From positions 520,845-584,844 of the forward strand of contig NZ_CP165784.1 of the NCBI RefSeq assembly GCF_000513895.2: a stretch of DNA of 64,000 nucleotides, written 5' to 3'. The translations under genes and the position numbers were made by a program. The stretch comes from Ensifer sp. WSM1721. GTDB taxonomy: Bacteria; Pseudomonadota; Alphaproteobacteria; Rhizobiales; Rhizobiaceae. Under the pieces are notes generated by a model. That model was not told the DNA's origin. It saw only the letters and a program-made list of their open reading frames with translations, and did not search any database. Below, piece after piece: positions 16,285-46,034 of the stretch (within the stretch, counting starts at the first letter, position 1; each line of letters starts with the position of its first letter).

Positions 16285-17430
16285 ATGCCGATCCACGACC
16301 CCTGCGCACTTCTAAACCGACTGTTGGAAGAACCCAACGAAAGCGCATGGTTGGAATTCAAGGTCAACAACAAGGATCCACGTGAGATCGGAGAGTATGT
16401 GTCGGCGCTTGCGAATTCGGCCATGCTTGCCGGAAGAGATCGCGCTTTCCTCGTCTTCGGAGTGGAGGATCGTACAAGGAGGAGGGTTGGCACGGAGCTT
16501 CGTCTGCAGCAACAGAAGCAGGGCAACGAGGATTTCACCAACTGGTTGACCTGAATGATCGAGCCGCGGGTGCTCATTGAGTTCTGGACTTTGTTTGCGA
16601 TGGTTTGGCCTATACCCTCGTCGCGATCGAGCCCTCTTATGAGCGACCTGTAAAATTCGCCGGTACGGAATTTGTCCGCATTGGCGAAAACAAGAAAAAA
16701 CTCGCCGAGTTCCCTGAGCACGAGCGTGCTCTCTGGATAGCAACAGGGCGCCGACGCTTTGAAACCGCAGTCGCGTCATCAAACGTCACTGCGGACGATG
16801 TCTTCTCGGTGCTTGACCCAGCCCCCATCTACGACCTGACGGGTGATCCGAAGCCGAGAAATCCTCAGGAGATCATTCGAAAGATGGTCGATGCTGGCTT
16901 TCTTCTCGACAACCTGGAAGGCCGTTTCGGCATCACCAATCTCGGCGCCATCATGTTGGCGCGTGATGTCACGGTTTTCCCATCCATTGCCGGCAAGACT
17001 GTTCGCATCGTGAAATACGCCGGCCGGGACAAGTCCCGTTCCGACTTCGAGCAGGAGGGCAAGAAGGGGTACGCCGTCGGCTTTACCGGAATGATGCGAT
17101 TTCTGGTGGAGCGGCTGCCGAAAGAAGAGCGATACATCGATGGCGTCCGGCGGATGGTGCCGCATTTCCCGGAAACGGCCGTGCGTGAAGTCATCGCCAA
17201 TGCTCTCATACACCAAGATTTCATGGCGACCGGCGTCGGTCCCGTCGTCGAAATCTATGAGAACCGAATCGAAGTCACCAATCCAGGTAGCTCTCTGATC
17301 AGCACCGACCGCATTCTCGATGAGCGCCGCTCGAGAAACGAGAAGCTTGCTGCGACCATGCGGTCATTCGGCCTTTGCGAGGAGCGCGGCGGTGGACTTG
17401 ACAAAACACTGATCGAAATCGAAGGATTAC
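16285..17430 (+). pseudogene. AlbA_2/Schlafen-like ATP-binding protein gene, broken
   Basis: The first frame reads EPNESAWLEFKVNNKDPREIGEYVSALANSA and RAFLVFGVED, the AlbA_2 (Schlafen-like) domain. A TGA at 16552 and a small frameshift around 16580 interrupt it. A second frame continues with the linker and a C-terminal HATPase-like part (RRMVPHFPETAVREVIANALIHQDF, IEVTNPGS, FGLCEERGGGLDK). The natural C-terminus is lost after about 17430. Such proteins are transcription-regulator-like or RNA-cutting and often sit in defence islands. As written it cannot give a full-length product. A short unrelated frame ending EIEELWTD at 17572 follows. Confidence 0.75.
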
Positions 17431-17542
17431 GGTGCAGCGGTCTTGCGTTGCAACTTTATCTTGAGCGATTACAATTCCTTTATCTCGGCGATTTCAAAAC
17501 TGCCGGTGGAACTTACGCATGCGACCGTGGACCTGCTTGGCA

Positions 17543-18685
17543 ATGAGATCGAAGAGCTTTGGACGGATTAAACTCGCCTGCCTCGCATTCGTAGCGTTGG
17601 GCGCCTGCGTCGGTGCAATCGTCACTTCCTCTCCATCTTACGCTCAGACGATTGCGGGCCATGCGATCGGCGAAGACGCCTCCAAATTGGTGGCTGACCA
17701 GCAAGTTTCTTCATCAAAGCCCACAGCCGAATACACGATCCTTCGACTCCCGAGCCCCAACGGGATCGATGTGACGCTGACCTACCAAAACGGGTCTCGG
17801 AAGATCATCCAAATTGAAGCCACCCGCCGGCCGTCGCAGTCCGGAGCATGGGGGCAGTTTGGAAAATTTGAGTTCGGAAAAACAAGTCTCTCCGAAGTAC
17901 GTTCTCTTTTTGGTAGCAAGGGCTTGCTCTTCACAGGCGTCGCGCCTGCGACCGCTACACCGGATGGCGGCGTGACTATTGTCAGCTCTTACGAGGTTCA
18001 GGGGACTAAAACCATCGCCTCGTTCGTCTCTAAAATATCCTCGGCCTCCCTACGTGAGCTGAAGCAGCGGTTCGGTGAAGATATGTACGCGCACCTCGAC
18101 GACGTCGCGTTGCTGGAATCAACGGTAGTCGCCGACATCGAGTATTTGAAGGGGACACGAGGGAACGAGCTCGTCTACGATGTGGGCTACGCACCCATTA
18201 TGTGGGAGAATGCTATCTCGCCAGTCGGTGAAGTACGGCAAATCTCGGTCGCCCGCATCTCCCCCTCACAGCTTCCGGTGCATCGGATCTATAATGGGCC
18301 GATCAACGCCCCCTATTTCACGGATGCCTCAGCACGGAACTTTCAAACTCGCATCTCGGAAGGCATGGCAGGCGGCCCGACCTTCGCCGGAGAATATGCC
18401 GTGATCCAAGTGGGCTGCGGCACAGGGTGCTCCATCGCCTATGTTGCGAGCGTCAGGACTGGCGAGGTTTCGCGCATTCCGATCGATGAGGCCGCCCAGT
18501 ACCTCGACCTCAAATACCAGATCGACAGTCGGCTGTTGGTCAAGCAATCCGCAAGAGGCGCGGCTTCCAAATGCCACATGCAGTTCTTGACTATGGATGA
18601 GGGTGAATGGATTTCGTTGCTCGAGCACGTCGTAGGACCAACGGAGACGTGCTACAACTCGATCGCCCAGAACCTTCGAAATTGA
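17543..18685 (+). CDS. Exported protein of unknown function, first gene of the HXS operon
   Basis: The 380-residue product has a signal peptide (KLACLAFVALGACVGAIVTSS, cut probably after SYA). The mature part is mixed alpha/beta without a family I can name; a region near residues 255-330 (FAGEYAVIQVGCGTGCSIAYVASVRTGEV) resembles small uncharacterised periplasmic domains with paired cysteines. It ends 18 bases before hxsD, so it is probably transcribed with the HXS genes. It may be a periplasmic partner of the modified HxsA protein, but that is inference from position. Confidence 0.6.
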   Translation: MRSKSFGRIKLACLAFVALGACVGAIVTSSPSYAQTIAGHAIGEDASKLVADQQVSSSKPTAEYTILRLPSPNGIDVTLTYQNGSRKIIQIEATRRPSQSGAWGQFGKFEFGKTSLSEVRSLFGSKGLLFTGVAPATATPDGGVTIVSSYEVQGTKTIASFVSKISSASLRELKQRFGEDMYAHLDDVALLESTVVADIEYLKGTRGNELVYDVGYAPIMWENAISPVGEVRQISVARISPSQLPVHRIYNGPINAPYFTDASARNFQTRISEGMAGGPTFAGEYAVIQVGCGTGCSIAYVASVRTGEVSRIPIDEAAQYLDLKYQIDSRLLVKQSARGAASKCHMQFLTMDEGEWISLLEHVVGPTETCYNSIAQNLRN

Positions 18686-18703
18686 CTGGAAGGCGCGCCA
18701 ATC

Positions 18704-18979
18704 ATGGATCATGCAGACTACGAGAGAACACTGGCCATCGAGCCCGAACTCTGTCCGTGGTTGGCAGACGCAACTGCACGGTTTCGCTATCTCTATCCGG
18801 ACGTTCATCTGACCATAAGCGATCAGTCGGTGACACTGACGACTTCCCGTGACCAAATGTCGATGCTCGTGCAGGACTTCGTGTTTTGTCTTTACCGGCA
18901 GAAGATCTACAGCGAAACGCTGCCGCTTCGGACAATGCTGATCGAAGGGGTGACGGGATTTGCCAGTCGTTCCGCTTAA
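18704..18979 (+). CDS. hxsD: HxsD-like small protein of the His-Xaa-Ser system
   Basis: This 91-residue protein has the size and place of HxsD, the short accessory protein found next to the paired radical SAM genes of the His-Xaa-Ser system. It contains predicted strand-helix segments (TARFRYLYPDVHLTISDQSVTL and a helix with FVFCLYRQKI). Its end overlaps the start of hxsB by 20 bases. Such small proteins may present the substrate peptide to the maturases. The call rests on length, gene order and partial resemblance; no catalytic motif is expected. Confidence 0.7.
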   Translation: MDHADYERTLAIEPELCPWLADATARFRYLYPDVHLTISDQSVTLTTSRDQMSMLVQDFVFCLYRQKIYSETLPLRTMLIEGVTGFASRSA

Positions 18980-20369
18980 ATTCCGGCCGCATCAGGATGG
19001 GCTCCTTCTCTTCGCGGACGACGCCGGTGGATATTTCAAGTCCGACCATGCCTTCTTGCACCGCTATGCGTGCGATCAGTTAACATCCGGCGACCTCGCG
19101 TTCTTGAATGCGAACGGCCACGCCTACAATGTTGTCGGTGATCTCGCCTATTACGGTTTCGAACACCGTTTTGCTGAGCGGCTCTACCTGCCGCGAGAAC
19201 TGGACTATGTCATTCTGGTGCCTACGCTCAGATGCAACTTGGCCTGCGGCTACTGCCAGGTTTCGCGTGTCAACGAAGCTACTCCGGGCTTTGATTGGGA
19301 CGACTCCACAGTAGAAGCGGTTATCGGACTTCTCGGCTCGCTTTCGGCCAGGAAAATCAAGGTCGAGTTCCAGGGAGGCGAGCCTCTCTTGCGCCTCGAT
19401 GTCATCGAAAGGATACGTGATTTCTGCAGGCAACGATTTGATGCCTGCGAGTTCGTAATCTGTACAAATCTACAGGAGGTCAGCGCCCCCGCCTGGGACC
19501 TGCTCGGACGAGACGACGTTTTTGTCAGCACTTCTTTGGACGGCAATCGCATAACGCATCAAAAGCAGCGCACAATGTTGCCGGGCAAGACGGATCAATT
19601 CTTCTCAAATCTTGATTTCGCTGTGAGCCGACTGGGGCCGGAAAAGATCTCCGCCTTGCCAACGATCGATCCGCACAATGCGCCCTCGCCGCAGGAAGTC
19701 ATCAAGACCTTCCTCAGCTATGATATTCGATCCATCTACCTGCGACCCGTGAACTACCAGGGCTTTGCGAGAAAGAAGTTCAACGCACGTGGAAGCGCCG
19801 ACCTCTGGAACAAGTATCATGCCGCTTTCATCGACGCGCTCGTTGAGCACAATTGGTCCTCTGCGGTCCCAATCGAAGAGTACTATTTCGTCCACTGTCT
19901 TCGACGGGTGCTGAGGTCCGGTCACAACGGTCACGTGGATCTCCGCAATCCGAACATTGTCGGGCACGGCTATGTGGTGATCGACTATGACGGCAAAATA
20001 TACCCGACTGATGAAGCGCGTATGGTCACCCGAGTCGGTCAATTCGACCTGTCCATGGGAGACGTCTTCAACGGGATCTCGGCGGACACGATCGATCGCC
20101 TAAACGCTGAAGCGTTCAACAACTTCCATCCGGATTGCGTGCACTGCCCCTACCAAGCCTTTTGCGGGGTTGATCTGGTCGATGACATTTCACGATATGG
20201 GCGGATCGATATGCCGAAACATCTGACTGACTTCTGTCAGCGCCATACGTCGATTTTCGACAGGGTTTTCGCGATGATCTATTCGGATGATCCAAAGGTC
20301 AAAAAGACGTTGGCGCTTTGGGCTGGCACACCTCACTTCGATCCGCGGCTTGCCAAGGTTCATCAATGA
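18960..20369 (+). CDS. hxsB: Radical SAM peptide maturase HxsB
   Basis: The 469-residue protein has a leading domain (about 1-75), the radical SAM iron-sulphur motif CNLACGYC (around residues 92-99), GGEP and downstream SAM-binding strands, and a C-terminal SPASM-like cysteine cluster (CVHCPYQAFCG and a further C). It would use a 4Fe-4S cluster and S-adenosylmethionine to modify the HxsA peptide. Translation seems to start at a TTG 20 bases inside hxsD; the next ATG lies after the conserved N-terminal region. Its stop overlaps hxsC (ATGA). Confidence 0.85.
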   Translation: MPVVPLKFRPHQDGLLLFADDAGGYFKSDHAFLHRYACDQLTSGDLAFLNANGHAYNVVGDLAYYGFEHRFAERLYLPRELDYVILVPTLRCNLACGYCQVSRVNEATPGFDWDDSTVEAVIGLLGSLSARKIKVEFQGGEPLLRLDVIERIRDFCRQRFDACEFVICTNLQEVSAPAWDLLGRDDVFVSTSLDGNRITHQKQRTMLPGKTDQFFSNLDFAVSRLGPEKISALPTIDPHNAPSPQEVIKTFLSYDIRSIYLRPVNYQGFARKKFNARGSADLWNKYHAAFIDALVEHNWSSAVPIEEYYFVHCLRRVLRSGHNGHVDLRNPNIVGHGYVVIDYDGKIYPTDEARMVTRVGQFDLSMGDVFNGISADTIDRLNAEAFNNFHPDCVHCPYQAFCGVDLVDDISRYGRIDMPKHLTDFCQRHTSIFDRVFAMIYSDDPKVKKTLALWAGTPHFDPRLAKVHQ

Positions 20370-21454
20370 TTAGCCTGCGCCTGAAGGTTGACCCCCTACC
20401 GATCGACGAGCCCTTGGTCGTCCGCCTGCAAGGACCGGGGTCACCTGCTCGGTCGGACCATGACGCGGTCCTTGCTGAAGTTGCACCAGATCGTTGCGAG
20501 TACGACCTCAATGGCTTTTCGTTTGGCGTGTATGGGGTTTCCGACGAGGTTATCGACGGCGACGTCTTGATGATGTTGCCAGGCGAGACGACGGCGCATC
20601 GCCTCATTCGCGCCGGTTCCGCGCACAACACGCTTCAGGTCACGGAGCAGTGCGACCAGCTATGTGTGATGTGCTCGCAGCCTCCCAAGAAATATCACAC
20701 CGATCTGTTCGACCAATTCACCCTCGCTGCGACATTGGCTCCGCAGGGAGCAATGATCGGCGTTTCGGGCGGCGAACCCTTGCTTCACAAGGAGCGGCTC
20801 TTTTCCATGCTCGAGGAGGTCAAGGCGCAGCGTCCCGACATCGGATTTCATGTCTTGACCAATGCGCAGCATTTTTCCCGAGCAGACTTAGAGAGACTGC
20901 AGCGGCTAGACCACGAACGCGTGCTCTGGGGCGTTCCGCTTTATTCGGCCACACCTGAAAATCACGACCGGATCGTGGGCAAACCGGGAGCATTCGCTAA
21001 CCTCGAACAGGGATTGTCGATCCTGATGCGCGCCGGGGCTTCCCTCGAACTGCGAACGGTCCTCATGCAACAGAACTGGCAGGATCTTCCGGCTCTGGCA
21101 GACTACGTGTCCACCCGCCTCAGCTTTTTGACGGTCTGGGCCATCATGCAACTGGAGCGGATCGGTTATGCCCGGATGAACTGGAAGGAGACGTTTAGAG
21201 ACACATCGGGCGATTTCGACCAGATTGCTCGCGCGGTAGACATCGCAACGGCACGCGGTCTCAAGGCCTCGCTCTATAATTTTCCCCTGTGTTCGGTACC
21301 GCCTGCTTACCAGGATTTTGCCCCCTCAACGATCTCGGACTGGAAGAGAAAATACCTAGACTTCTGTTTGAATTGTCGCGCCAAGGAAACTTGTGGTGGT
21401 TTTTTTCAATGGTATAGTCATGCAGAGGGGTTTGCATTTCTGGGGCCGTTATGA
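20366..21454 (+). CDS. hxsC: Radical SAM peptide maturase HxsC
   Basis: The 362-residue protein is a second, distinct radical SAM enzyme: an N-terminal domain of about 90 residues, the cluster motif CDQLCVMC, GGEP (SGGEPLLHKERL) and a C-terminal pair of cysteines (CLNCRAKETCGGFF). Pairs of different radical SAM proteins beside an HXS-repeat precursor define the HXS system. It starts inside the hxsB stop and its own stop overlaps hxsA (ATGA), so all are translationally coupled. The chemistry performed is unknown from sequence. Confidence 0.85.
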   Translation: MISLRLKVDPLPIDEPLVVRLQGPGSPARSDHDAVLAEVAPDRCEYDLNGFSFGVYGVSDEVIDGDVLMMLPGETTAHRLIRAGSAHNTLQVTEQCDQLCVMCSQPPKKYHTDLFDQFTLAATLAPQGAMIGVSGGEPLLHKERLFSMLEEVKAQRPDIGFHVLTNAQHFSRADLERLQRLDHERVLWGVPLYSATPENHDRIVGKPGAFANLEQGLSILMRAGASLELRTVLMQQNWQDLPALADYVSTRLSFLTVWAIMQLERIGYARMNWKETFRDTSGDFDQIARAVDIATARGLKASLYNFPLCSVPPAYQDFAPSTISDWKRKYLDFCLNCRAKETCGGFFQWYSHAEGFAFLGPL

Positions 21455-22038
21455 AATCTCGCCTGTTTATGATCCCGTCGCTTCTGGTGGCGGGCTTTTT
21501 GCCATCGAAATCTGATGCGATACCGATTGGCGAGGTTGCTTCCAAGAAAGATCCCGGGACTTCTGTATTGGAGCGCCTCAGGCTGAAGCACATATTCACG
21601 CTCGCCGGGCATCGTTCACATAGCTCCCACCGCTCACACAGCTCCCATTCAAGCCATCGATCAAGCAGTGGCGGTGGCTACACCCACAGACGCAGTGCAC
21701 CGGTCTACTCGCCGCCATCAACGGTCTACACAGCTCCGTCCGGTTCGTTCGCCACCCAACCGACGGTTTCCGCGACCCCTGCATATCCGAGCACGTCCAA
21801 TCCGGCGACAGCCACTCCGCTCAAGACGCTTCCCGGAAATACCGCGAAATTCAAGCGCATCGTAATGCAGGTCCAGACCGCCCTCACCGCCTATGGCTAC
21901 TACGAAGGCTTGATTGATGGGCAAGTCGGGCCGGCTTGCAAGAAAGCGCTCGTCGCGATGCAGACCGACTACAATCTGAAGGTCACCGGAACGATCACAC
22001 CGGATGTGCTCAATACTTTCGGCATCCTCGCAAACTAA
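21451..22038 (+). CDS. hxsA: HxsA, secreted His-Xaa-Ser repeat precursor with peptidoglycan-binding domain
   Basis: The 195-residue protein has a signal peptide ([17 protein letters not shown]), then six consecutive His-Xaa-Ser triplets (residues 54-71, in the order [18 protein letters not shown]), a Ser/Thr/Pro-rich linker (72-125) and a C-terminal peptidoglycan-binding domain ([29 protein letters not shown]). The repeats are the expected substrate of HxsB and HxsC, giving a modified protein held at the cell wall. It is the only obvious peptide substrate in the operon. Function beyond this is unknown. Confidence 0.9.
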
Positions 22039-22075
22039 TCGAACGACCAATTCCAACGATTTGAAAGAACAAACC

Positions 22076-22756
22076 ATGGCCAATCCATTTGAGCAACAAC
22101 CCTTCGAAGGTGCTGAGTTCGTCGATAATCCGGAACCGCGGTGCCCCTGCCTATTGCTCCTCGATGTCTCGGGTTCGATGCGCGGAGAACCCTTGAAGGA
22201 GCTAAATGAAGGGCTCGTTCAATTCAGGGACGAACTCTACGCAGACTCCCTGGCTGCCAAGAGGGTCGAAGTAGGCATTGTAACATTCGGACCAGTTGCG
22301 GTCGCGAACGACTTCGAAGGCATACATCACTGGAACCCGCCTGAGCTCTCGTCGCAAGGCGACACTCCGATGGGACGCGCTATAGAGACCGGACTTGATA
22401 TGCTCCGGCGGAGAAAGGACAGCTACAAACAGAACGGGATCTCTTATTACCGGCCCTGGATCTTCCTCATCACGGACGGCGCGCCAACGGATGCATGGAA
22501 CGGCGCAGCCAATGCGGTGAAAGCGGGTGAAGCCGAGAAGGCGTTTTCATTCTTTGCGGTCGGTGTGCAGGGCGCCAACATGGAGATCCTGTCACAGATT
22601 TCAGTTCGACAGCCGTTGGCGCTGAAGGAGCTGCGCTTTCGTGATCTGTTTTCCTGGCTTTCAAGCTCACTCGGCTCTGTATCCCACTCCAATCCAGGGG
22701 ACGCTGTTCCGCTCGCAAACCCGGCTACTCCGGACGGATGGGCGTCGATTGCATGA
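22076..22756 (+). CDS. vWA-domain protein of a TerY-P-type triad (TerY/YegL-like)
   Basis: The 226-residue protein is almost wholly a von Willebrand A domain. The metal-site residues are present: DVSGSM near residue 29, a threonine in GDTPMG, and [10 protein letters not shown]. This arrangement is typical of TerY/YegL proteins, which work with a PP2C phosphatase and a Ser/Thr kinase in stress or tellurite-type response systems. It starts 37 bases after hxsA and overlaps the next gene by four bases. A short polar tail follows the domain. Confidence 0.85.
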
Positions 22757-23523
22757 CCAGCAGCTGGCGATGGGCATGCGCACGGTCCATTGGCACTTCG
22801 CATGTGAAGACGGATACCCCATGTCAGGATTATGCCGGCGCAAAGCTTTTCATCCGGCCAGAGGGCCCAATTATGACCGCGGTCGTCGCGGACGGGGCAG
22901 GCAGCGCGTCACATGCGGGGGCCGGATCCAAGCTCGTATGTCTTTCGTTTTTTCGGGCATGCCGAGAGTTCCTGATTACGAAGCCTCTCGAAGAATTGGT
23001 CGAAGAACATGTCTGGAGCTGGCTTGATGGGATCCGAGAGGCGTTAAACGCCAAGGCGAACGCCATGGCGCTTCGGCCGCGGGACTTCGCCTCGACAATG
23101 GTAGCGGTAGTCGCAAGCCCGCAAACGTCGATTGTGATCCATATCGGCGACGGCGCCGCAGTCTGGAAGACGGCGGGATCGGACGAATGGGAGGTGCCTT
23201 CCTGGCCATACCATGGTGAGTACGCGTCGACGACAGCATTTGTGACTGACGACCCCCAACCAAACCTCAACTATCTGCGCATTAACGAGGCCATCGACGA
23301 ATTCGCTCTGTTTTCGGACGGCATCGAACGCCTGGTGCTCGAACATGCCACCAGATCGGCGCATGCGCCATTTTTCAATCGGATGCTGGCGCCCCTAAAA
23401 AGTTCACTCCTCGAGGGGCCGGACAGGGTTCTCTCCGCAGCATTGAAACACTATCTGGATAGCCCGAACGTGTGCGAGCGCACCGATGACGACAAATCGC
23501 TTATTCTCGGCGTCAGAACATGA
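22753..23523 (+). CDS. PP2C-type protein phosphatase (YegK-like)
   Basis: The 256-residue protein has PP2C metal-binding motifs: a substrate-recognition start ([16 protein letters not shown]), [28 protein letters not shown] and [10 protein letters not shown], the last two with conserved aspartates. It would remove phosphates placed by the kinase encoded next. The ATG at 22753 overlaps the vWA stop, and its own stop overlaps the kinase start (ATGA). Confidence 0.85.
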
Positions 23524-25436
23524 CCGTCGTCGTCTCGTCCGATGGTCGAAAGTTGACACTGGGCGGCCTCGTCGCGAAGGGTGGAGAGGGAGCTGTCCAC
23601 CACATCGTCGAAGCGCCCGACCTCGTTGCGAAGATTTATCTTCGCGGGAAGGCCGCCGACCGACGAGAAAAGGTCGATGCGATGGTTTCGGCTCGCCTGC
23701 ATATGAGCACGTCTTTCGTCGCGTTTCCGGTCGATACCCTGAAATCCCCACGCGGCGAGTTCCTGGGATTCACGATGAAGAAGGTGAACGGTTTCAAAAG
23801 CGTTCATGATCTTTATGGGCCTGCCAGTCGTAAGACCGAGTTTCCGACGGCCGACGCAAACTTCCTGATCAGAGCCGCCATCAATCTGGCGCGAGCGATC
23901 GCAAGTGTGCACGCGACCGGATGCGTAATCGGTGATATCAACCATTCCGGCGTCCTCGTGTCTGAGAAGGCGTTGGTCACTCTGATCGACAGCGACTCGT
24001 TTCAATTCCGTTCGCAATCAAAGTTCTATCGATGTTTAGTCGGCGTTCCGGAGTATACCCCCCCGGAGCTGCAGGGCGCATCGCTCGACCAAACGGATCG
24101 CATACCTAACCACGATAATTTTGGGTTAGCAGTCCTGCTTTTCCAGTTGTTATTTCTCGGGCGTCACCCCTTCGCAGGGCGCTATCGCGGCAAGGGCGAT
24201 ATGGACATTCGGAAGGCTATTGGGGAAGGCCGCTTTGCCTATAGCGAACGCCGCGCAGAAACAATGATGGAGCCACCGCCCTACGTCCCGGCGCTGTACG
24301 ACTATGGGAAAGAAATGGCCCGCGCTTTCGAAACAGCTTTCCGCTTGCCGACGAAACATACTAATGGCCGACCACTCGCCTCGGAATGGGTGACGCTGCT
24401 AACGTCAGTCGAAGCTAGCCTTAAGGCATGCACCGCCGATCGGGCGCATTCATATGCAGGTAGTCTCTCCACCTGTCCCTGGTGCTCGATTGAACGGTCG
24501 ATGGGGCGATCGTTGTTCGTCGCGCAGTACTCGCCCACTGCCCCGGTCATGGATATCGGCCAACTCCTAACGGCGATCCGCGGCATACCAGCACCCGGGA
24601 AGCCTCCCGAACCAGAGAAAATTGTAGAGCCACTCTTGAGTCTGACGGTTTCCCCAGCGGGTCAGCAAGCTCGATCCGAAAGAACGGTCACCGCTGTCGC
24701 TGGCATCATTGCGATTATTATCGGCTTCTACCTGATGACGTCCATTCAGGGCTTTTGGGGAGCTGCGCTTATGGCCGGCGCTGGCTTCCTGACCCTTCGC
24801 TCTCTCGATTTAACGCGAACATTTGCCGCCGAGCATGCGAACGCCCAATCGGTTTGGGAGTCAGAGCGAAAGGCATGGATCGCTCATGCCGGCCCCGGGA
24901 AGTTCGAGGAAAGAAAAAATCACTATCTCAGCGTAGCAACAGCTCACTCTGAGCTACCGGGGCAGGAGCAAGCAAAACTGAAGGCACTTGAGCAGAAGAA
25001 GCGTCAGCTCCAGATGCAGAAACACATGGAGTCGCACCTAATCGAGCGCACGAAAATTCCTAAGATAGGCGCCGGTCGCAAGGCAACGCTGGCATCCTTC
25101 GGCTTCGAAGATGCCTGGGACGTCATGCAGCGCCCGATCACCAACGTCCCTGGTTTTGGCCCATCGCTCGCAGCCGACGTCATGGGCTGGGCGCGCTCGA
25201 TCGAGAGAAAGTTCGTCTTCAACAATGCCATTCCAACGGACCCGCAGGCGATTCAACAGATTAAGTCCGAAATCGGGAAGAAGCGCGCCGAATTGGAAAG
25301 GGAGCTCCATCGGGCGCCTGATGAGCTGCACCGGTTGGCAGACGATGCACGCTCACTCGTAAAGTCACCCCCTCAAGGCCTAACCGAAGCCTATCGACGG
25401 CTGAAGCAGCTCGAAGTTGATATGGGTACGGTCTGA
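23520..25436 (+). CDS. Membrane Ser/Thr kinase-like protein with helix-hairpin-helix end (YegI-like)
   Basis: The 638-residue protein starts with a kinase domain: glycine loop (KGGEGAVH, about 20-27), lysine in VAKIY (K38), catalytic loop IGDINHSGVLV (about 137-147) and metal loop LIDSDSF in place of DFG. The Asn expected five residues after the catalytic Asp is a glycine here. A four-cysteine-like CPWC element follows near 319. Two membrane segments (about 381-420), a coiled coil and a helix-hairpin-helix region (ITNVPGFGPSLAADVMGW) complete it. This is the architecture of YegI, the third member of the vWA-PP2C-kinase triad. It overlaps the phosphatase gene by four bases. Confidence 0.8.
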   Translation: MTVVVSSDGRKLTLGGLVAKGGEGAVHHIVEAPDLVAKIYLRGKAADRREKVDAMVSARLHMSTSFVAFPVDTLKSPRGEFLGFTMKKVNGFKSVHDLYGPASRKTEFPTADANFLIRAAINLARAIASVHATGCVIGDINHSGVLVSEKALVTLIDSDSFQFRSQSKFYRCLVGVPEYTPPELQGASLDQTDRIPNHDNFGLAVLLFQLLFLGRHPFAGRYRGKGDMDIRKAIGEGRFAYSERRAETMMEPPPYVPALYDYGKEMARAFETAFRLPTKHTNGRPLASEWVTLLTSVEASLKACTADRAHSYAGSLSTCPWCSIERSMGRSLFVAQYSPTAPVMDIGQLLTAIRGIPAPGKPPEPEKIVEPLLSLTVSPAGQQARSERTVTAVAGIIAIIIGFYLMTSIQGFWGAALMAGAGFLTLRSLDLTRTFAAEHANAQSVWESERKAWIAHAGPGKFEERKNHYLSVATAHSELPGQEQAKLKALEQKKRQLQMQKHMESHLIERTKIPKIGAGRKATLASFGFEDAWDVMQRPITNVPGFGPSLAADVMGWARSIERKFVFNNAIPTDPQAIQQIKSEIGKKRAELERELHRAPDELHRLADDARSLVKSPPQGLTEAYRRLKQLEVDMGTV

Positions 25437-25439
25437 TCG

Positions 25440-26102
25440 ATGGCAGCGACCTATCGAAATTTCTGGATCATTGTGGGGATGACCGTCTCGGCAACGGCGC
25501 TCGCACATTTGTCGGCAAAACCCAAACGCACTGTTTCATCGACCATAGAAGTCAGCCGCCGTGAACCAGCCCGATCGTTGAGTGCAACAACAAATCAAAC
25601 GCCGATTGTATCTGAAGCGCCAGAGCCAAATTCCGGCGGTATTGAAACAACAAATCAAGCCCTTTCCACTGAGCCCTCAGCCGAGCGGCAATTCAAAAAT
25701 ATAGACGCAGAGTTTAAGGCCTCATTCGACGCTGCTGCTCAGATGGCACTCGCTATACCTTCAGCTTCGGCGACTGATCAAGCCGAGCAACCCCTTTCAG
25801 ACGTTCCTCTGCCATCGTTGCAAACCCGGGAGATACAAGCAGAACCAAAGCTTTTCGATTTCGGGGAAGAAACATCGCCGAACAACAATCCCACTCCGAC
25901 GGGCCTTGGTACAGGCGTCACGACTACGAACCTGAACCTCCGCGAAGGCCCAGCCGCAAACTACCTTCTAATCGACGTCCTGGCGACCGGCATCACACTC
26001 GTCATTCTCGAACAGGAAAATGGTTGGTTTCACGTGCGCGATGCTTCTGGCAGGCAGGGTTGGGTCAACGGAACCTACGTCTCGCGCACAGTGCAGCAAT
26101 AA
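25440..26102 (+). CDS. Exported or membrane-anchored SH3b-domain protein
   Basis: The 220-residue protein has one N-terminal hydrophobic segment (FWIIVGMTVSATALAHL), a long Ser/Thr/Glu-rich linker (20-155) and a C-terminal bacterial SH3 domain (TTNLNLREGPAANYLLIDVL, ENGWFHVRDASGRQGWVNG). SH3b domains bind cell-wall peptides. It begins three bases after the kinase stop and is the last gene of the operon. With HxsA it gives the operon two proteins aimed at the cell wall. Confidence 0.75.
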   Translation: MAATYRNFWIIVGMTVSATALAHLSAKPKRTVSSTIEVSRREPARSLSATTNQTPIVSEAPEPNSGGIETTNQALSTEPSAERQFKNIDAEFKASFDAAAQMALAIPSASATDQAEQPLSDVPLPSLQTREIQAEPKLFDFGEETSPNNNPTPTGLGTGVTTTNLNLREGPAANYLLIDVLATGITLVILEQENGWFHVRDASGRQGWVNGTYVSRTVQQ

Positions 26103-26134
26103 CCCTCTGTGAAGCTCGAAGGTTTGCGCTGGCT

Positions 26135-26604
26135 TTAGTCGCACCATGGCCGGGGCGTGGCCGGGCAACTGGTATCGCCGCAAACAAACGGGACCGCCAA
26201 GCCTTCGGAGACTAAGATGTCTCCGACATCACCACCATCGACCTTGAGCGATCCACACCGCCGGCCGTGGTTGCATCTGTCCGTACCTTCCGTTCCAGGT
26301 TTGCAGGAGAGGCAACCCTTGTCACTGTCGGCTTTCCAGACGCGACGAGCTGCCTCAGGCGTTCGCTTGCCCGGGTGCCAAGTGCCGCCTCGCGCGAACA
26401 TTGGGGCCCAAACTTTTCCGGCGTATTGAAACCGACAAGTCGAATGCGCGTACCATCACTCATGCGAATGGTATCGCCGTCGGTGACTGTGAAAGACTGA
26501 GTGGCGAAACTGTCCGGCGGAGCCGCGGGCTGAAAGGCGTCGAAACGCGGTCGCCACTCCGTGAGCGTCTGTCCGCCGAAAACCACGATCATCATCAGCA
26601 ACAA
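26135..26604 (-). pseudogene. Thermonuclease-like (SNase) gene, frameshifted
   Basis: The minus strand starts with a membrane or signal segment (MLLMMIVVFGG) and an SNase domain: VTDGDTIRMSDGTRIRLVGFNTPE, then CSREAALGTRASERL. After about 110 residues the frame is lost near 26270-26290, and the missing end (GGDVGDILVSEGLAVPF and CPATPRPWC) continues in another frame to 26135. One or two small indels account for it. Unless ribosomes shift frame, the product lacks the end of its fold. Confidence 0.7.
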
Positions 26605-28677: not shown

Positions 28678-29979
28678 ATGACCACGCTCATTCCTTCATC
28701 TGACGGTTATGCCTCTCTGCTCGCCGAGCTTAAGGAGAGGATCCGAACAGCTCGCCTGAAGGCGGCCGTTGCTGTTAACCGAGAACTCATCGTGCTCTAC
28801 TGGAGCATCGGCCGCGATATCTTGGCACGCCAGATCGCCGAAGGGTGGGGCGCCCGCGTCATCGATCGGCTCGCCAGGGACCTCCGGCGCGATTTTCCAG
28901 AAATGAAGGGGCTTTCGCCGCGAAACCTCAAATATATGCGCGCGTTTGCGGAGGCATTCCCCGAGGAGGGAATCGTGCAACAACTTGTTGCACAATTGCC
29001 CTGGGGCCATAACGTCAAACTCATCGAGGCACTGAAGGGCCCTGAAGAGCGGCTCTGGTATGCCCGCCAGGCCGTAGAACATGGATGGAGCCGCAGCGTT
29101 CTCGTTCATCAGATCGAAAGCGGCCTGTACCAGCGACAGGGGAAGGCACTCACCAATTTCGCGCGGACACTGCCTGCACCGCAATCCGATCTGGCGCAAG
29201 AATTGATCAAAGATCCCTACAGCTTCGATTTTCTTGCCCTCGGCCCGGCGATGTCCGAGCGCGAACTCGAGCAAGGGCTGCTCGAGCACCTACGCTCTTT
29301 GATCCTCGAGCTCGGTAAAGGCTTCGCATTCGTCGGCAGCCAGCATCATCTCGAGGTTGGGGGGCAGGACTATTATCTGGATCTACTGTTCTATCATTTG
29401 CGGCTGCGCTGCTTCGTGGTCGTCGAGCTCAAGATCGAGGAATTCAAGCCGGAGTTCGCCGGCAAGATGAACTTCTATCTTTCCGCTGTCGATGACCAAC
29501 TTCGACACGAGATGGACGCTCCGAGCATCGGCATTATTCTGTGCAAAGGCAAGAATGAGGTGATTGTCGAATACGCTCTCCGAGATTCAACAAAGCCGAT
29601 GGGCGTTGCGGAATATAGGCTCTCTGCAGCCCTCCCCGAACCATTGCAGACAGAGCTGCCCACCGAGGCGGAATTTGCACGCGAGTTCCCATTGATGTCG
29701 CTCGTGAAGCTGCGCATAGAGGTTGAGCGTGAAATCCGCTTGCTGATGGCCGACCAGGCCGAGGGGGAGATACCGGCGGCTCTTGGGACTTTGCTGACAG
29801 AGCTCCAGCGACTCGGGCTAACGCCCCAAACAGTCGAGCGGTTCCGAAATGCCCTTCACGCGATGAACCGCGCAGCTCACGGAATGGACGTGGCGACCGC
29901 GGAAGCATCTGAGGCGACCGAAATTGCTGCCGCCTTCCTTGCTGAGCTTCGAGCCGTCCGCAACAGCCGATCCTCGTGA
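28678..29979 (+). CDS. DUF1016/YhcG-family PD-(D/E)XK nuclease with C-terminal extension
   Basis: The 433-residue protein has the DUF1016 N-terminal helical domain (LYWSIGRDILARQ, LSPRNLKYMRAFAEAFP, QLPWGHNVKLIE) and the C-terminal nuclease core with a catalytic run DYYLDLLFYH and VVVELK (about residues 222-250). YhcG proteins average about 340-375 residues; this one carries roughly 75 additional helical residues at its end (GTLLTELQRLGLTPQTVERFRNALHAMNRA onward) that I do not recognise. The family is common in defence islands and beside restriction systems, and fits this neighbourhood of conflict genes. Confidence 0.85.
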   Translation: MTTLIPSSDGYASLLAELKERIRTARLKAAVAVNRELIVLYWSIGRDILARQIAEGWGARVIDRLARDLRRDFPEMKGLSPRNLKYMRAFAEAFPEEGIVQQLVAQLPWGHNVKLIEALKGPEERLWYARQAVEHGWSRSVLVHQIESGLYQRQGKALTNFARTLPAPQSDLAQELIKDPYSFDFLALGPAMSERELEQGLLEHLRSLILELGKGFAFVGSQHHLEVGGQDYYLDLLFYHLRLRCFVVVELKIEEFKPEFAGKMNFYLSAVDDQLRHEMDAPSIGIILCKGKNEVIVEYALRDSTKPMGVAEYRLSAALPEPLQTELPTEAEFAREFPLMSLVKLRIEVEREIRLLMADQAEGEIPAALGTLLTELQRLGLTPQTVERFRNALHAMNRAAHGMDVATAEASEATEIAAAFLAELRAVRNSRSS

Positions 29980-30349: not shown

Positions 30350-31045
30350 TTATGAGCGGTCAATGACCCGAAGGCTCTGAACTTCGCGCAAGCTGTTGCG
30401 AAGTGCATCCATCCACTGCTCGTCGACGCTAGAGGAGAGCACGACGCTTGCGTTCCTCTGGAAGGAAATCAATCCCCTTGCCGAGCGAAACCTTAGTTGC
30501 ACCTTTTCGAGCGAGTATTCTGCTGGAGAAACGAATTTGATCGCCGCATCGGCGATGTCGCCACTTCCCTTGACTAGCACCTGACCGACAGCACTCTCAC
30601 CTATAGCTACTGATCCAATTTGCACCCGTTCGATCGCTCCGTAGACTCCCACGATTTCTCTAAACCGGGTTGCCCATGCCAAAGGGTCTATGGATGATTG
30701 CTCGATCGCAAATCGGTGGTTCAATGCTTCCAGCAGCCGACTAACGAGCTTTGAGCCAGTTCGCCCAGGGTCTCGCAACTCAAGGCTAGATGTCTCCGGG
30801 CTGATACGAAAATGCGTCCGGAGATATTCGACGATCTCGTACTTTTCCTCATGGCCAAATGGGTCGATCGTCTCGTGCGTTGTCTGCACCCGCTGTATAA
30901 GGCATGCTTCAAGGAAATTGGGTCGCAACTGTTCCACAACAAAACCGTCTGGGGAACCGTCTTTGTAAGGCATGTTCTTGAGGTGGCCCGCAATAGCGCT
31001 CGCCTCGAGTTCCGTCTGCAAGCCGTACCAACGAACGCGCATCAC
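30350..31045 (-). CDS. Third gene of an unrecognised three-gene cluster
   Basis: This 231-residue soluble protein begins MRVRWYGLQTELEASAIAGHL and has mixed alpha/beta composition with several strand-like segments (SSLELRDPGR, VQLRFRSARGLISFQR). No catalytic motif or known fold is apparent. Its start overlaps the stop of the previous gene by four bases, so it is part of a coupled operon with the two genes upstream. Its function probably depends on them. Confidence 0.65.
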   Translation of the reverse strand: MMRVRWYGLQTELEASAIAGHLKNMPYKDGSPDGFVVEQLRPNFLEACLIQRVQTTHETIDPFGHEEKYEIVEYLRTHFRISPETSSLELRDPGRTGSKLVSRLLEALNHRFAIEQSSIDPLAWATRFREIVGVYGAIERVQIGSVAIGESAVGQVLVKGSGDIADAAIKFVSPAEYSLEKVQLRFRSARGLISFQRNASVVLSSSVDEQWMDALRNSLREVQSLRVIDRS

Positions 31046-32160
31046 TTTCCGCCCTTAGCTATCGGCCGGCCTCTTCGAATCTCAGCCAGAACCGTTCGAG
31101 AGGTCCGTTCAAGAAGAGAAAATAGCACTTTTCGAACCCCGTCATCCGGGAGCTTGAAGTTGTGGGGGTATGTGCCGGTGCGCTCAGACCGGCGAGAGTG
31201 TCTGGCTCGATACTGAAACCCCGTTCCTTCCTGAGCATTTTCGAATGATGCCTCGAACTCGACTCTATCGAAGGGGTGAGCCGTCTGGGTAGCTTCCCAC
31301 TTTATGGACGTTATGAAAAAGCCGTCCTCTTCCATCTGTTTGTACTGTTTCGACACCAGCAGGTCATTGCCGCTCAGCGCTACGTTTTTCACTAGATTGA
31401 TCATCGCACTTTTTGCGACTTCTTGCTCCGCGGTCTCCCCATCTTCATCAGCGTCGAGATCATCGATCTCTGTGGATGCGGCCGAGACCTTGAGCTTGGT
31501 CACGGTATCCAACCGAAAGCCAGTCATTTTAGTGACGAGATTGACGAAAAACCGCGTTCGGCTCTCTGGTGAAAGATCTTCCACGGTGATGCGCTCTTGT
31601 GGGACCGCACTTTTCTTCTTACTTTCCAACTTCTCGATAAGAATATCTACGAGCTCTCGCCCCTTGTCGTTGGCGGGAAAACGGATCACGACGCCGTCGT
31701 CTTCGATTCTGAAATCTAAGCTTGCGACCTTGTCCTGCCGCTGCGCCAACGTGGTGCGGGAAAGATCGAACTCGCTGTACCCCACGGTCGCGATTACCGC
31801 TTCGGACGTTTTGTGTGGGACCGCAACCTTGTCGTTCTTTCCATCTGTATTCGCATATTCTTGTATGACATCTTTGATCTCCGAGACGTCCAGCTTCATT
31901 TTGACGGTCAACGAACTCGTTCGTTCGCCTCGCGTGCCCGGTTCGGCGTCTTTGACCAAATCGATGACATCCTGCAGATCGTGGATAGTCATCGAAATGT
32001 AGTCCGCCAAATCCCCACGGTTGGTCGCAGACCCGAAGAAGACACCACGTTCTCGGGTAAGCCGATGGAGAACGCCATCGGTTATCCTCTGCTTTGCAGA
32101 GAACATAAGATCGTAAAGCTCCTTGTCGGTCGCGAACAAACGTGGATGCTTATCCCGCAT
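31042..32160 (-). CDS. Second gene of an unrecognised three-gene cluster
   Basis: The 372-residue protein starts MRDKHPRLFATDKELYDLMFSA, has an acidic middle with DDLDADEDGETAEQE and a predicted alpha/beta fold, but no motif I can tie to a family. It looks soluble. Its start overlaps the end of the nuclease-like gene by 11 bases. It may be a sensor or adaptor for the first gene; that is only a guess from gene order. Confidence 0.65.
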   Translation of the reverse strand: MRDKHPRLFATDKELYDLMFSAKQRITDGVLHRLTRERGVFFGSATNRGDLADYISMTIHDLQDVIDLVKDAEPGTRGERTSSLTVKMKLDVSEIKDVIQEYANTDGKNDKVAVPHKTSEAVIATVGYSEFDLSRTTLAQRQDKVASLDFRIEDDGVVIRFPANDKGRELVDILIEKLESKKKSAVPQERITVEDLSPESRTRFFVNLVTKMTGFRLDTVTKLKVSAASTEIDDLDADEDGETAEQEVAKSAMINLVKNVALSGNDLLVSKQYKQMEEDGFFITSIKWEATQTAHPFDRVEFEASFENAQEGTGFQYRARHSRRSERTGTYPHNFKLPDDGVRKVLFSLLERTSRTVLAEIRRGRPIAKGGK

Positions 32161-33148
32161 AGCTCATCCCCATTTCCGTAGTTGAATAGGACGCCAATAT
32201 CTCCGGCACGTGCGAAATCTTGATCTTCGACAGACGTTTCGCGAAATCGGTGTCCTGATTTTCGCCGGGTATGGAAGACACATATTCCTGGATTGCCTTT
32301 TGGAGATTAGCCGAGGCGTCATTGTCGTCGGGTTGCACCTTGATATCAAACCGCGTCTTACTCACGATTAGCTCGTGTCGCCGCAAATAGTCGATGAGAT
32401 ACATCAATCCTTCTACGGTCGTCTTACGACGATGGAAGATGACAAACCCTTGGCGCGCATCTTCGTCGTCGAAATGTTCCAAGATTATCCACGGAGACTT
32501 CAACATCTCCATGGTTGCGGCCCGAGCACGCTCGCTTCGCACGACAGTATTTCTAACTAGCTGCGGATAATAGAACGCGCAACGTTCCCTCGGAGGAAGG
32601 CGCTTGGCTTCGTCTTCGTCGCCCCTCATTTGTTGCAGCTCGCGCGCAACACGTTGAAGCCAGTTAATTTCTTCCGGTCCAAGGACGTAAAGACGCGACT
32701 TTCGGGGAAGCTTGATGTCCTCAGGCCGGATATCAGAAATTAATGTATCAAACGACTTGTGGAATTCCTTGTCATGATTGTAGACGAACAGCAGCCCGGA
32801 AATATCAAACGCGGACGACGCATGTGTGTAGCGTTTTTGCCAAACCTCACTTGCCTCTGCGCATGAGACCTGATTCGCAAGACTGAGAATGGCCTCCTTG
32901 ACCGCAGGGCGCTTGATGCTGTCCTTGCTGTAACTTTTCAAATCGCACTGAATGTATCGTCGAACCGTGGAGTACGGTTCATCATAATAGAAGACGACGT
33001 CCGTAGGATGACTCTTGGTGTTGTGAGACTCCTGCTGCTCGCATGGCCAATTCTCGTTCATCGGACCGGTCTTCTGCCATAAAAATTCGGCGAACACCTT
33101 ATTGGAAAGGTCTTCTGCCATTTGTGCTCGATTGATAGTTTCTGCCAT
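32150..33148 (-). CDS. Putative PD-(D/E)XK nuclease-like protein, first gene of an unrecognised three-gene cluster
   Basis: The 332-residue protein has an N-terminal segment with glutamates (MAEDLSNKVFAEFLW), an aspartate in TDVVFYY (D50) and, 17 residues on, YIQCDLKSY (Q67, D69, K71) followed by a helix. That spacing, acid, strand, then (D/E)-x-K, is the pattern of the restriction-endonuclease-like fold. The rest (100-332) is helical and not recognised. It is the promoter-proximal gene of a three-gene coupled operon. A nuclease in a defence setting is the best reading, but the fold call is a motif inference. Confidence 0.5.
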   Translation of the reverse strand: MAETINRAQMAEDLSNKVFAEFLWQKTGPMNENWPCEQQESHNTKSHPTDVVFYYDEPYSTVRRYIQCDLKSYSKDSIKRPAVKEAILSLANQVSCAEASEVWQKRYTHASSAFDISGLLFVYNHDKEFHKSFDTLISDIRPEDIKLPRKSRLYVLGPEEINWLQRVARELQQMRGDEDEAKRLPPRERCAFYYPQLVRNTVVRSERARAATMEMLKSPWIILEHFDDEDARQGFVIFHRRKTTVEGLMYLIDYLRRHELIVSKTRFDIKVQPDDNDASANLQKAIQEYVSSIPGENQDTDFAKRLSKIKISHVPEILASYSTTEMGMSYAG

Positions 33149-39665: not shown

Positions 39666-41041
39666 TCGAAGGCGGTTTGCTCGGCCGTCACGATCAAGAC
39701 CTCCGCAGGCATTCCCGGAACGAGGACTATGCCCTTGTCGAGCGCGGCAAGCTCTTCGCGCGGCACCTCGACGCGTGCGAGATAGTAGGCCTGGCCTGTC
39801 GCCTCGTCGACGATGCGATCGGCAGAGAGGCTTCGGACCACGCCTTGCACACGCGGCAGGCCCCTGCTTGAAAACGCGGTGAGGTGAACAGTCGCGGTCT
39901 GCCCCACTGTCACGACATCGATATCGCCAGGAACTATCCGCGCGTCGATGAGCAGCCGCTCCTCGGTCGGCACGATCTCGAGGACCGGTTCGCCTGGGAG
40001 GATAACGCCGCCGACCGACTTGAAACGCAGGTTCACGACCTTGCCGCTGACCGGAGCGGTCACGGTCGTTCGATCCAGGATGTCCTGGCTTGCATTGAGG
40101 CGTTCGGACACGCTGGCCATCTCGGCGCGGACTCTTTCGAGTTCCGTCGACGTCTCCTCCGACCGCGTGGCGCGGAGCGAGATGCGTTGGGTCGCGATCT
40201 CGCCGATCTTCTGCCTGATCTCGGCGATCGAGCCGAGATACTTGCCGCGCTCGCCCTGGAGGGCGGCTTGGAAGCGCTGAAGCGTCAGTATTTCTGGCTC
40301 TCTGACAAGAGCCTTGCGGAGCAGCTTCCCCTTCCCCGCCAGCTCCTTCGCGATAAGTTCGATCTGTCGGTCGGCGCTTTCCACTTGTGCCTTCAGAGCG
40401 CTGATCTGCTCCCTGAACTGGTTCTCCCGGTCGTCGAGAACCTGCAGCTGGGCCGAGAATGACGCACGGCGCATTTCGAAGATCGAGATCTGCCCCTGAA
40501 CGACCTCGCGCAGCCCAGGATCGTCCTCGGCCACCATTTCGTTCGGGAAATGGACCGCATCATTGCCTGCCTGTTCCGCAAGCAAACGCAGCCGCGTTGC
40601 CACAAGCGTTCTCGACTGCTCCAGAAGCAGTTCGTTCGCCGCGGCTGCCTGAGTGCTTTGAAGGACGACGATCGGGTCGCCGGCCCGCACTAAATCCCCG
40701 TCCCGGACTTTCAGCGCCTGGATAATGCCGCCTTCCAGGTGCTGTACAGTCCTCCGGCTTCCGTCCGGGCTGATGATGCCGGGAGCTATCGCTCCGGCCG
40801 CGATTGGGGCAAACAGCGACCACGCAAGGCCGCCGACGACGAATATGACGATCACGGCAAAACCAAGCCGGACCGGAACCTTGACCACCTCGCGCACCGT
40901 GAGGGGTTCCGGCAGAGCCTCTTGGCGTGCCATCCTGTTCCCCGGAAGCGCAACTACATTCGACTTGCTGTTTGCCACGGGATTGCCTTTCCATTCGAGG
41001 ATTTGAGTGTTCAACGTATCCTTGCCGTCCGTACGGCTCAT
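39611..41041 (-). CDS. HlyD-family membrane fusion protein of a type I secretion system
   Basis: The 476-residue protein has a short cytoplasmic start, one membrane segment (about 58-80), a biotinyl-lipoyl-like barrel (VQHLEGGIIQALKVRDGDLVRAGD), a long coiled-coil hairpin (about 150-320) and the closing barrel strands (TVTAPVSGKVVNLRF) with a C-terminal beta domain. This is the adaptor that links the inner-membrane ABC exporter to an outer-membrane TolC-type channel. Its ATG overlaps the ABC gene stop. No TolC homologue is in the window, so a chromosomal one must be used. Confidence 0.9.
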   Translation of the reverse strand: MSRTDGKDTLNTQILEWKGNPVANSKSNVVALPGNRMARQEALPEPLTVREVVKVPVRLGFAVIVIFVVGGLAWSLFAPIAAGAIAPGIISPDGSRRTVQHLEGGIIQALKVRDGDLVRAGDPIVVLQSTQAAAANELLLEQSRTLVATRLRLLAEQAGNDAVHFPNEMVAEDDPGLREVVQGQISIFEMRRASFSAQLQVLDDRENQFREQISALKAQVESADRQIELIAKELAGKGKLLRKALVREPEILTLQRFQAALQGERGKYLGSIAEIRQKIGEIATQRISLRATRSEETSTELERVRAEMASVSERLNASQDILDRTTVTAPVSGKVVNLRFKSVGGVILPGEPVLEIVPTEERLLIDARIVPGDIDVVTVGQTATVHLTAFSSRGLPRVQGVVRSLSADRIVDEATGQAYYLARVEVPREELAALDKGIVLVPGMPAEVLIVTAEQTAFDYMIEPFRAAFRRGFRES

Positions 41042-42825: not shown

Positions 42826-42851
42826 TCCCCAGCCCCCTTGTTGGTTCGGTC

Positions 42852-45887: not shown

Positions 45888-46034
45888 TTTGCCCTCCTTT
45901 ATGCCGACGTCTCTGCGGCGTGCTTCTCGAAGTATGCTAGGGCCCATTTGCCCGAACTGACACAACGCGTTGGTGGACTCTCCTTCGGGCGTACACCCTT
46001 GGTCGGTGGCTGCTCCGCAGCCGCCCCCGCACGC

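Follow-up and report, generated by a model that had tools for sequence, protein, structure and literature searches.

The locus analysed here raises the question of whether a peptide-modification system of the His-Xaa-Ser type (HXS) and a signalling triad of a vWA protein, a PP2C phosphatase and a kinase, which stand one behind the other in a single gene row, work as one unit. The row lies in a 64,000-nucleotide stretch of Ensifer sp. WSM1721 (contig NZ_CP165784.1, positions 520,845 to 584,844), hereafter the window, where a reading of the open reading frames (ORFs) placed nine same-strand genes at 17543-26102: a gene for a 380-aa protein, the four hxs genes hxsD-like, hxsB, hxsC and hxsA, the triad, and a gene for an SH3b protein. 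We know of no product or role for the HXS system, which was reportedly described by Haft and Basu in 2011, and a search of the open-licence literature for HXS and TerY-P found no HXS-triad link in the text accessible to it. We see an even chance that the nine genes form one functional unit, whose split receptor kinase in the membrane would sense the wall or wall-bound HxsA; the HXS-triad join belongs to one kinase clade within the Hyphomicrobiales. The row, present in nodule bacteria and some relatives, would enable the cell to monitor a protein that is predicted to be enzyme-modified and is likely wall-bound, and it makes the purpose of that protein testable.

The genes of the row are packed closely. 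The hxsD-like gene overlaps hxsB by 20 nucleotides (nt), hxsB/hxsC and hxsC/hxsA overlap by 4 nt each, a spacer of 37 nt separates hxsA from the vWA gene, vWA/PP2C and PP2C/kinase overlap by 4 nt each, and 3 nt separate the kinase from the SH3b gene (Table 1). The ORF coordinates thus confirmed the gene order, the 37-base spacer and the near-universal tight joints described in an earlier reading of the bare sequence (the original prediction). Ten loci showed the same joints, with an hxsA-vWA spacer of 20-51 nt kept over wide divergence and inner joints of -4 or -1 (vWA/PP2C), -4 (PP2C/kinase) and -4 to +9 nt (kinase/SH3b); start codons in this comparison were partly chosen by us, and locus L129, with a broken triad, was excluded. 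Because the joints recur in this way, the layout is not attributable to chance. The sole plus-strand promoter-like site within 17300-26400 ends at 17475, ahead of the row, and is weak (3 sites found against 4.3 expected by chance).

Table 1. Genes and parts of genes in the HXS-triad row, in window coordinates.
Feature	Position	Strand	Basis or remark
Protein without assigned function, 380 aa, hydrophobic N-terminus 9-27	17543-18685	+	likely secreted
hxsD-like small protein, 91 aa	18704-18979	+	position-based
hxsB, radical SAM/SPASM maturase	18960-20369	+	TIGR03978
hxsC, second radical SAM maturase	20366-21454	+	TIGR03977
hxsA, predicted substrate: signal-like N-terminus, His-Xaa-Ser steps, Pro-rich linker, PG_binding_1	21451-22038	+	TIGR03979
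vWA protein, MIDAS (metal ion-dependent adhesion site) intact, YegL/TerY-like	22076-22756	+	PF00092
PP2C phosphatase, YegK/PphC-like	22753-23523	+	PF13672
YegI-like Ser/Thr kinase	23520-25436	+	conserved residues, AlphaFold2 (AF2) model, fold match
Kinase C-terminal half (residues 344-636)	24549-25427	+	stand-alone equivalent in two hxs lineages
SH3b protein: hydrophobic N-terminal segment, Ser/Pro-rich linker, C-terminal SH3_3	25440-26102	+	PF08239

The frequency with which HXS and the triad adjoin was determined in several collections. A set of 99 HxsB loci, made up of the best 80 of 377 HxsB-encoding stretches from a scan of genome contigs and 19 from plasmids and genomes, was reduced to 83 by dereplication at 97% HxsB identity; some of these loci end early, and counts over the 83 are minima. 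A kinase, or part of one, was found within 10 kb of hxs in 13 of them, comprising eight intact same-strand triads, one convergent, two with the kinase C-terminal half only, one broken and one from Cupriavidus. In the Rhizobiaceae draw, which included the window's own genome (G000; 6.33 Mb, 4 contigs), HxsB was present in 9 of 297 genomes and the kinase or part of it in six. All three genomes with both (G000, G175 and G229, the last with the kinase C-terminal half only) carried them no more than 5 kb apart, and the kinase genomes G016, G020 and G238 yielded no HxsB at E 1e-10. With the window's genome set aside, at least two joint genomes among 296 have a chance probability of P = 0.006, and co-location within 10 kb contributes a further chance factor of about 0.003-0.004.

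Over a wider range the association was rare. Among 398 Pseudomonadota genomes HxsB was detected in 15 and the kinase in seven; two had both, adjacent in G000 and on different contigs in G443, and a general HXS-triad link was rejected on this single adjacent pair, that of the window. The Hyphomicrobiales draw gave the kinase in 14 of 352 genomes, and inspection of all 14 neighbourhoods (some with short flanks, G020 and G550 at contig ends) showed hxs adjoining in two, the window and G690. The refuting condition set with the original prediction, rare adjacency in other genomes, thus has a split outcome: adjacency is rare in general (1/398) but repeated within one kinase clade, with all three joint Rhizobiaceae genomes (3/3) showing it.

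HXS systems are frequent on plasmids: of 72,556 plasmid records, 387 aligned in tblastn to 80% or more of HxsB, and 439 gave any match. Of the records that matched the row itself, 6 of the 10 records kept most or all of it at 77-88% DNA identity and 89-100% length, its nearest named relatives being Sinorhizobium/Ensifer. The plasmid kinase survey considered 60 matches listed from 74 records; among the matches listed, full-length kinases of at least 53% identity were within about 7 kb of hxs in every case (14/14), and none of the nine inspected at 31-39% identity had hxs nearby, in flanks of up to 9 kb; the Cupriavidus P-10 kinase (32%) did.

The trees placed the join within narrow limits. In a 35-row kinase tree, a 15-row clade (100/99) held seven of the eight hxs-linked kinases, and the eighth, from Cupriavidus, paired with the E. 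coli kinase (100/99) and is 32% identical to that of the window. The Cupriavidus P-10 locus was kept apart and not taken as an instance of the same unit: its triad stands about 1.8 kb after hxsC, with a gene whose product has an N-terminal CoiA domain in between, and no HxsA was found. A 34-row HxsB/HxsC tree likewise had a 15-row clade (99/98) containing all of its same-strand downstream triads. The link takes three arrangements within the kinase clade: the cassette lies downstream of hxs on the same strand, as in the window; in the R. tropici group, vWA-PP2C-kinase-SH3b is convergent with hxsDBCA; and in G690, whose HxsB scored above cut-off, a single strand carries vWA, PP2C, kinase, a 262-aa lipoprotein-like protein, hxsD-like, hxsB, hxsC and hxsA, followed by a trypsin-like protein of 861 aa that contains a peptidoglycan-binding domain. 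The G690 kinase is practically identical to P0173, from Oharaeibacter diazotrophicus by its source name.

Several rows of the group lack parts of the cassette. L012 (A. tumefaciens pAt) and L045 (Rhizobium sp.) are without vWA, PP2C and kinase domain, and their ORF between hxsA and the SH3b gene is the kinase C-terminal half, the 293-aa ORF of L012 aligning to kinase residues 344-636 and that of L045 to 334-636; the two halves are 36% identical and lie on separate branches. Such half-only forms made up 26 of the 60 plasmid matches listed (of 74 records), all 26 with hxsB within 3 kb and mostly on near-identical pAt plasmids. Purifying selection on the half was indicated by omega values of 0.11 for L012-L150 (dS 2.7) and 0.23 for L150-L151 (dS 0.24), calculated by the Nei-Gojobori method and only rough for distant pairs, in which dS exceeds 1. 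L025 and L027 carry SH3b with neither triad nor kinase half, and in L129 the PP2C gene is broken and the kinase is cut short near an IS66 element. The half-only and SH3b-only rows were read as losses, because their relatives elsewhere are full-length, and the retention of the halves and SH3b indicates that the part tied to hxs is the membrane and helix-hairpin-helix (HhH) half together with SH3b, not the enzyme. Within its HxsB/HxsC clade, 14 rows have the downstream region available and 13 of these carry SH3b; L026 ends too early for downstream genes to be scored. A single-linkage SH3b cluster covered 19 of the 83 loci and included a second kind of protein: its L014 member, a DUF4236 protein, matches SH3 only below threshold, and those of L040, L042, L043, L044 and L082 are probably of the same kind. 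These DUF4236-type loci were left out of all statements on SH3b, which gives 13 loci with a protein of the window kind.

In the cassette, the catalytic or metal residues of kinase, PP2C and vWA are intact. The vWA protein matched PF00092 above cut-off (E 7.5e-9), with the DxSxS, T97 and D134 of its MIDAS invariant in 10 rows, and the phosphatase matched PF13672 (PP2C_2) above cut-off at 148.3 bits, with metal residues D47, D133, D189 and D246 invariant in 10 rows. The Pfam Pkinase match of the kinase (E 3e-6, 27.2 bits) fell below the cut-off of 31.7 bits; K38, D139, N141, D157, C304, H310, C319 and C322 are invariant in 59 rows, and its best match among Protein Data Bank (PDB) folds, found with Foldseek, was PknB (5u94, E 1.3e-7), with many other kinases nearly equal. 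A kinase domain (about 1-300) is followed by a C/H/C/C cluster (304-322), two predicted membrane helices (379-428), a helical stalk and a helix-hairpin-helix at about 518-563, a label taken from source annotations. The AF2 model (predicted local distance difference test, pLDDT, 89) contains two membrane-length helices, 379-408 and 411-428, and a Pfam scan found no PASTA repeats in the kinase. The SH3b protein matched SH3_3 (PF08239) above cut-off at 44.1 bits. Between the window and L021, omega was 0.04 for vWA, 0.10 for PP2C, 0.07 for the kinase and 0.25 for SH3b.

For the HXS half, HxsB, HxsC and HxsA all exceeded the curated NCBIfam cut-offs (TIGR03978, 397.6 bits against 370; TIGR03977, 319.4 against 267.9; TIGR03979, 179.1 against 121.65). 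The CxxxCxxC motif is found at position 92 in HxsB and 96 in HxsC, and HxsA has six H-x-S steps (residues 54-71) and a PG_binding_1 domain (PF01471) above the Pfam cut-off (47.7 bits, residues 138-188). No NCBIfam model matched the hxsD-like protein, and its likeness to two annotated HxsD proteins is weak and C-terminal (hhalign probability 42), so that its identity rests on position; homologs were found in the equivalent place in 51 of the 83 loci. The hxsDBCA naming of the original prediction accordingly stood for HxsB, HxsC and HxsA, and for hxsD was a matter of position. The 380-aa protein upstream, for which no Pfam or NCBIfam family scored above cut-off, has 24 homologs and lies immediately 5' of hxs in 14 of the 83 loci, a count that omits L056 and L086 (weak matches); a structural assignment was abandoned, the AF2 model (pLDDT 65.5) being too weak and its fold matches unusable. 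A hairpin with a T-run was noted at 21469-21510, inside the signal region at the start of hxsA, with a similar fold in all 9 triad loci and in 2 of the 5 other loci tested; the encoded peptide is conserved too, the region shows no excess of terminator-like sites over chance, and an attenuator there is only a guess.

Comparison with described systems set the row apart from each of them. With the HxsABCD system it shares the three proteins above cut-off, the order hxsB-hxsC-hxsA, the HxS repeats and PG_binding_1, whereas it differs in the HxsD-like protein that NCBIfam does not recognise, in the four kinase-cassette genes and in the clade-specific gene that precedes them. Its triad is closest to E. 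coli YegL-PphC(YegK)-YegI, a TerY-P relative. The E. coli triad stands beside mdtAB, and from gene order we take it to be yegL, yegK and yegI; it has the same vWA, PP2C and kinase, the kinase aligning full length (at 4-636 of a profile built on the window's kinase and relatives, and with 38% identity to the window's kinase over residues 4-326), but no SH3b partner and no hxs found in the 15 kb examined. The window's kinase is of the YegI type in its predicted membrane segment, its helix-hairpin-helix and this full-length alignment. According to one report, E. coli YegI is membrane-bound and autophosphorylates, PphC dephosphorylates it, and neither an expression-promoting condition nor a signal is known for the triad (PMC13232886); this supports the enzymology and not the HXS link.

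TerY-P systems (TerY vWA, PP2C and Ser/Thr kinase) have the same three kinds of protein side by side, and reports describe them as anti-phage (PMC7699616, PMC10889362) and as partners of CoCoNuTs, with kinases ending in a zinc ribbon or an OB-fold (PMC11090510). The window's kinase has an invariant C/H/C/C cluster, after which predicted membrane helices and the HhH follow. The label "TerY-P-type" in the original prediction was apt for the three kinds of protein and loose otherwise, YegL-PphC-YegI being the nearest triad. PASTA receptor kinases read the wall through a periplasmic domain. The PknB type gave the best fold match to the kinase domain; in the window, the predicted wall domain is instead on a separate gene, predicted cytoplasmic parts lie on both sides of the membrane hairpin, and the row has vWA and PP2C and no PASTA repeats.

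A clue to the place of SH3b came from the relatives of the kinase. The homologs listed, 120 in all, include 28 that are longer than 700 aa and 19 that contain PF01471 (precomputed Pfam; two were re-checked), and six of the seven long kinases scanned for hydropathy have a further hydrophobic segment after the stalk and then a Pro/Ser-rich linker. A relative of one fused kinase, P0215, sits in a vWA-PP2C-kinase triad at L159 with no hxs nearby. Standalone kinases of L161, L162, L163, L165, L179, L123 and L124 end, by annotation or sequence, in a topoisomerase-type C4 zinc-finger-like stretch. With a wall-binding tail in some members and such an end in others, the kinase family therefore varies the address at its C-terminus. 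Within the hxs clade, SH3b, encoded by the next gene, is laid out like the wall-binding tail.

The working model is as follows. HxsB, HxsC and the HxsD-like protein would act on HxsA in the cytoplasm, altering its His-Xaa-Ser stretch by a chemistry suggested by their families; after export, the modified HxsA would be retained at the wall through its peptidoglycan-binding domain. Two helices are predicted to hold the kinase in the membrane, its catalytic domain and HhH stalk both being cytoplasmic, and SH3b would supply a third membrane segment and a periplasmic, wall-facing domain, a partnership proposed because other members of the kinase family carry a fused peptidoglycan-binding domain in that place. 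Judged by their families, PP2C would reverse the kinase and vWA, by way of its metal site, may act on the pair as gate or scaffold. The hxs-tied core would be the kinase C-terminal half plus SH3b, with phosphorylation as an option that disappeared on two occasions in the available tree. What is observed here is the gene content and the tree; that these are losses rather than gains, and what they mean, is our interpretation. Tentatively, and well short of an even chance, HXS and cassette may amount to a new wall-surveillance system, with modified HxsA as a probe, a split YegI-type kinase reporting its state, PP2C resetting it and vWA acting as a gate. If this holds, HXS would gain a first function and the orphan YegLKI triad a first class of ligand. 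The original prediction had the triad either controlling or reporting on maturation or placement of the HXS protein. Reporting stays plausible, because the link repeats in one clade and survives changes of arrangement, whereas control of maturation was not borne out. The HXS-triad clade, whose natural variants reveal which parts stay together, offers a small, tractable unit for asking both what HXS does and what the triad responds to, in laboratory strains of the symbiont S. meliloti with the row on a plasmid.

A number of observations weigh against this model. The triad is dispensable for most HXS systems, as the 13 of 83 loci with a kinase or part of one attest; standalone triads are frequent on plasmids; and the kinase clade of the hxs-linked rows also includes the kinases of G020 and G962, genomes without HxsB at E 1e-10. 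Topology was less clear by hydropathy, the scan flagging one segment only in the kinase (391-409, the second helix being missed), no membrane-spanning segment at the N-terminus of SH3b and none at that of HxsA, so that export of HxsA is an expectation only; the positive residues after the hydrophobic segment of SH3b also fit poorly with a C-outside topology. A profile of the SH3b N-terminus scored at best 2.9 bits against 28 long-kinase tails, under the best shuffled control, and with no sequence homology found between SH3b and the tails "split receptor" is an analogy of layout. SH3b as a homologous, recently split tail of the fused kinases was rejected on this test, and a P0215 search that crossed the kinase stop into SH3b was set aside, the stretch being hydrophobic segment plus linker. 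Kinase and SH3b share a reading frame in only 5 of 10 loci and hence give no sign of a recent split. Lastly, L045 lies on a long branch that the tree program marked as unsure, and the two losses may therefore be one loss plus a transfer.

The strongest rival to a split receptor is hitchhiking: a mobile anti-phage module of the TerY-P-like kind would have inserted downstream of hxsA on a plasmid of rhizobia and spread together with it, the two halves having a transcript in common but no function. We consider this less likely than not. TerY-P confers phage resistance elsewhere (PMC7699616, PMC10889362), HXS loci without a triad are the majority, and defence genes are close at hand: a PDC-S02 nuclease and a 3HP-type Hp1-Hp2-Hp3 set follow the row at distances of 2.6 kb and 4.3 kb, HXS adjoins, by annotation, CBASS-like genes in M. 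ciceri and an ATP-dependent endonuclease with a UvrD helicase in R. rhizogenes, and standalone triads lie near AbiEii genes in three loci, a proximity to defence genes for which there is no control frequency from plasmid loci. Arguing against pure hitchhiking are the recurrence of the link in three arrangements within one kinase clade, the spacer held at 20-51 nt over wide divergence, and the presence of the non-catalytic kinase half and SH3b beside hxs in loci that lack the catalytic parts; moreover, no PADLOC model named for TerY-P matched the triad proteins, in a library whose holding of such models was unchecked.

HXS and triad could also be jointly directed against phages or competitors, the modified wall protein changing or sensing the envelope under attack and the kinase triggering a response. 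The plasmid and defence-gene context would suit this, as would the patchy spread of HxsB (9/297 Rhizobiaceae genomes, 387/72,556 plasmid records), but the triad is absent from most of the available HXS loci and others contain different accessories, such as a TIGR03982-type protein paired with a MauG-like di-haem protein (13/83), and we consider it unlikely. Least probable is that SH3b and the kinase C-terminal half are a scaffold for HxsA assembly or export while the phospho-switch acts elsewhere in the same envelope complex. Both do occur without the catalytic parts, and L025 and L027 show SH3b in the absence of the half as well, but the majority of the available HXS loci lack both.

Around the row and in the other HXS loci, further genes were recorded. 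On the minus strand at 30353-33148 of the window, 4.3 kb past the SH3b gene, three genes matched PADLOC Hp1, Hp2 and Hp3 (E 1.6e-43, 4.2e-31 and 2e-9), a 3HP-type candidate anti-phage system, and a YhcG/DUF1016 PDDEXK nuclease on the plus strand at 28678-29976 matched PDC-S02 (E 3e-156). In Mesorhizobium ciceri (L015, 12572-16425), the genes after HXS encode patatin-like, DncV-like nucleotidyltransferase and ThiF proteins, a set that is CBASS-like by annotation. The TIGR03982-type and MauG-like pair after hxsA, for which one member each was tested, occurs in L020, L047, L050, L052, L058, L059, L061, L065, L077, L083, L084, L087 and L100, and a 386-aa family, secreted and protease-like by eye, follows hxsA in 8 of the 83 loci (L013, L014, L040, L042, L043, L044, L075 and L082), the member tested having no Pfam or NCBIfam match. 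Among the 439 plasmid records that matched HxsB, 318 are from Klebsiella, and in one of these, L017, hxsDBCA adjoins a klebsidin lasso-peptide set. Just beyond the row, a 130-aa minus-strand ORF (26212-26604, no Pfam match) may be a remnant, because the close relative L021 has a 270-aa annotated thermonuclease gene in its place. Further along, at 41041-45965 on the minus strand, a gene for an RTX-repeat protein with 14 calcium-binding stretches stands beside an ABC exporter gene, resembling a type I secretion pair.

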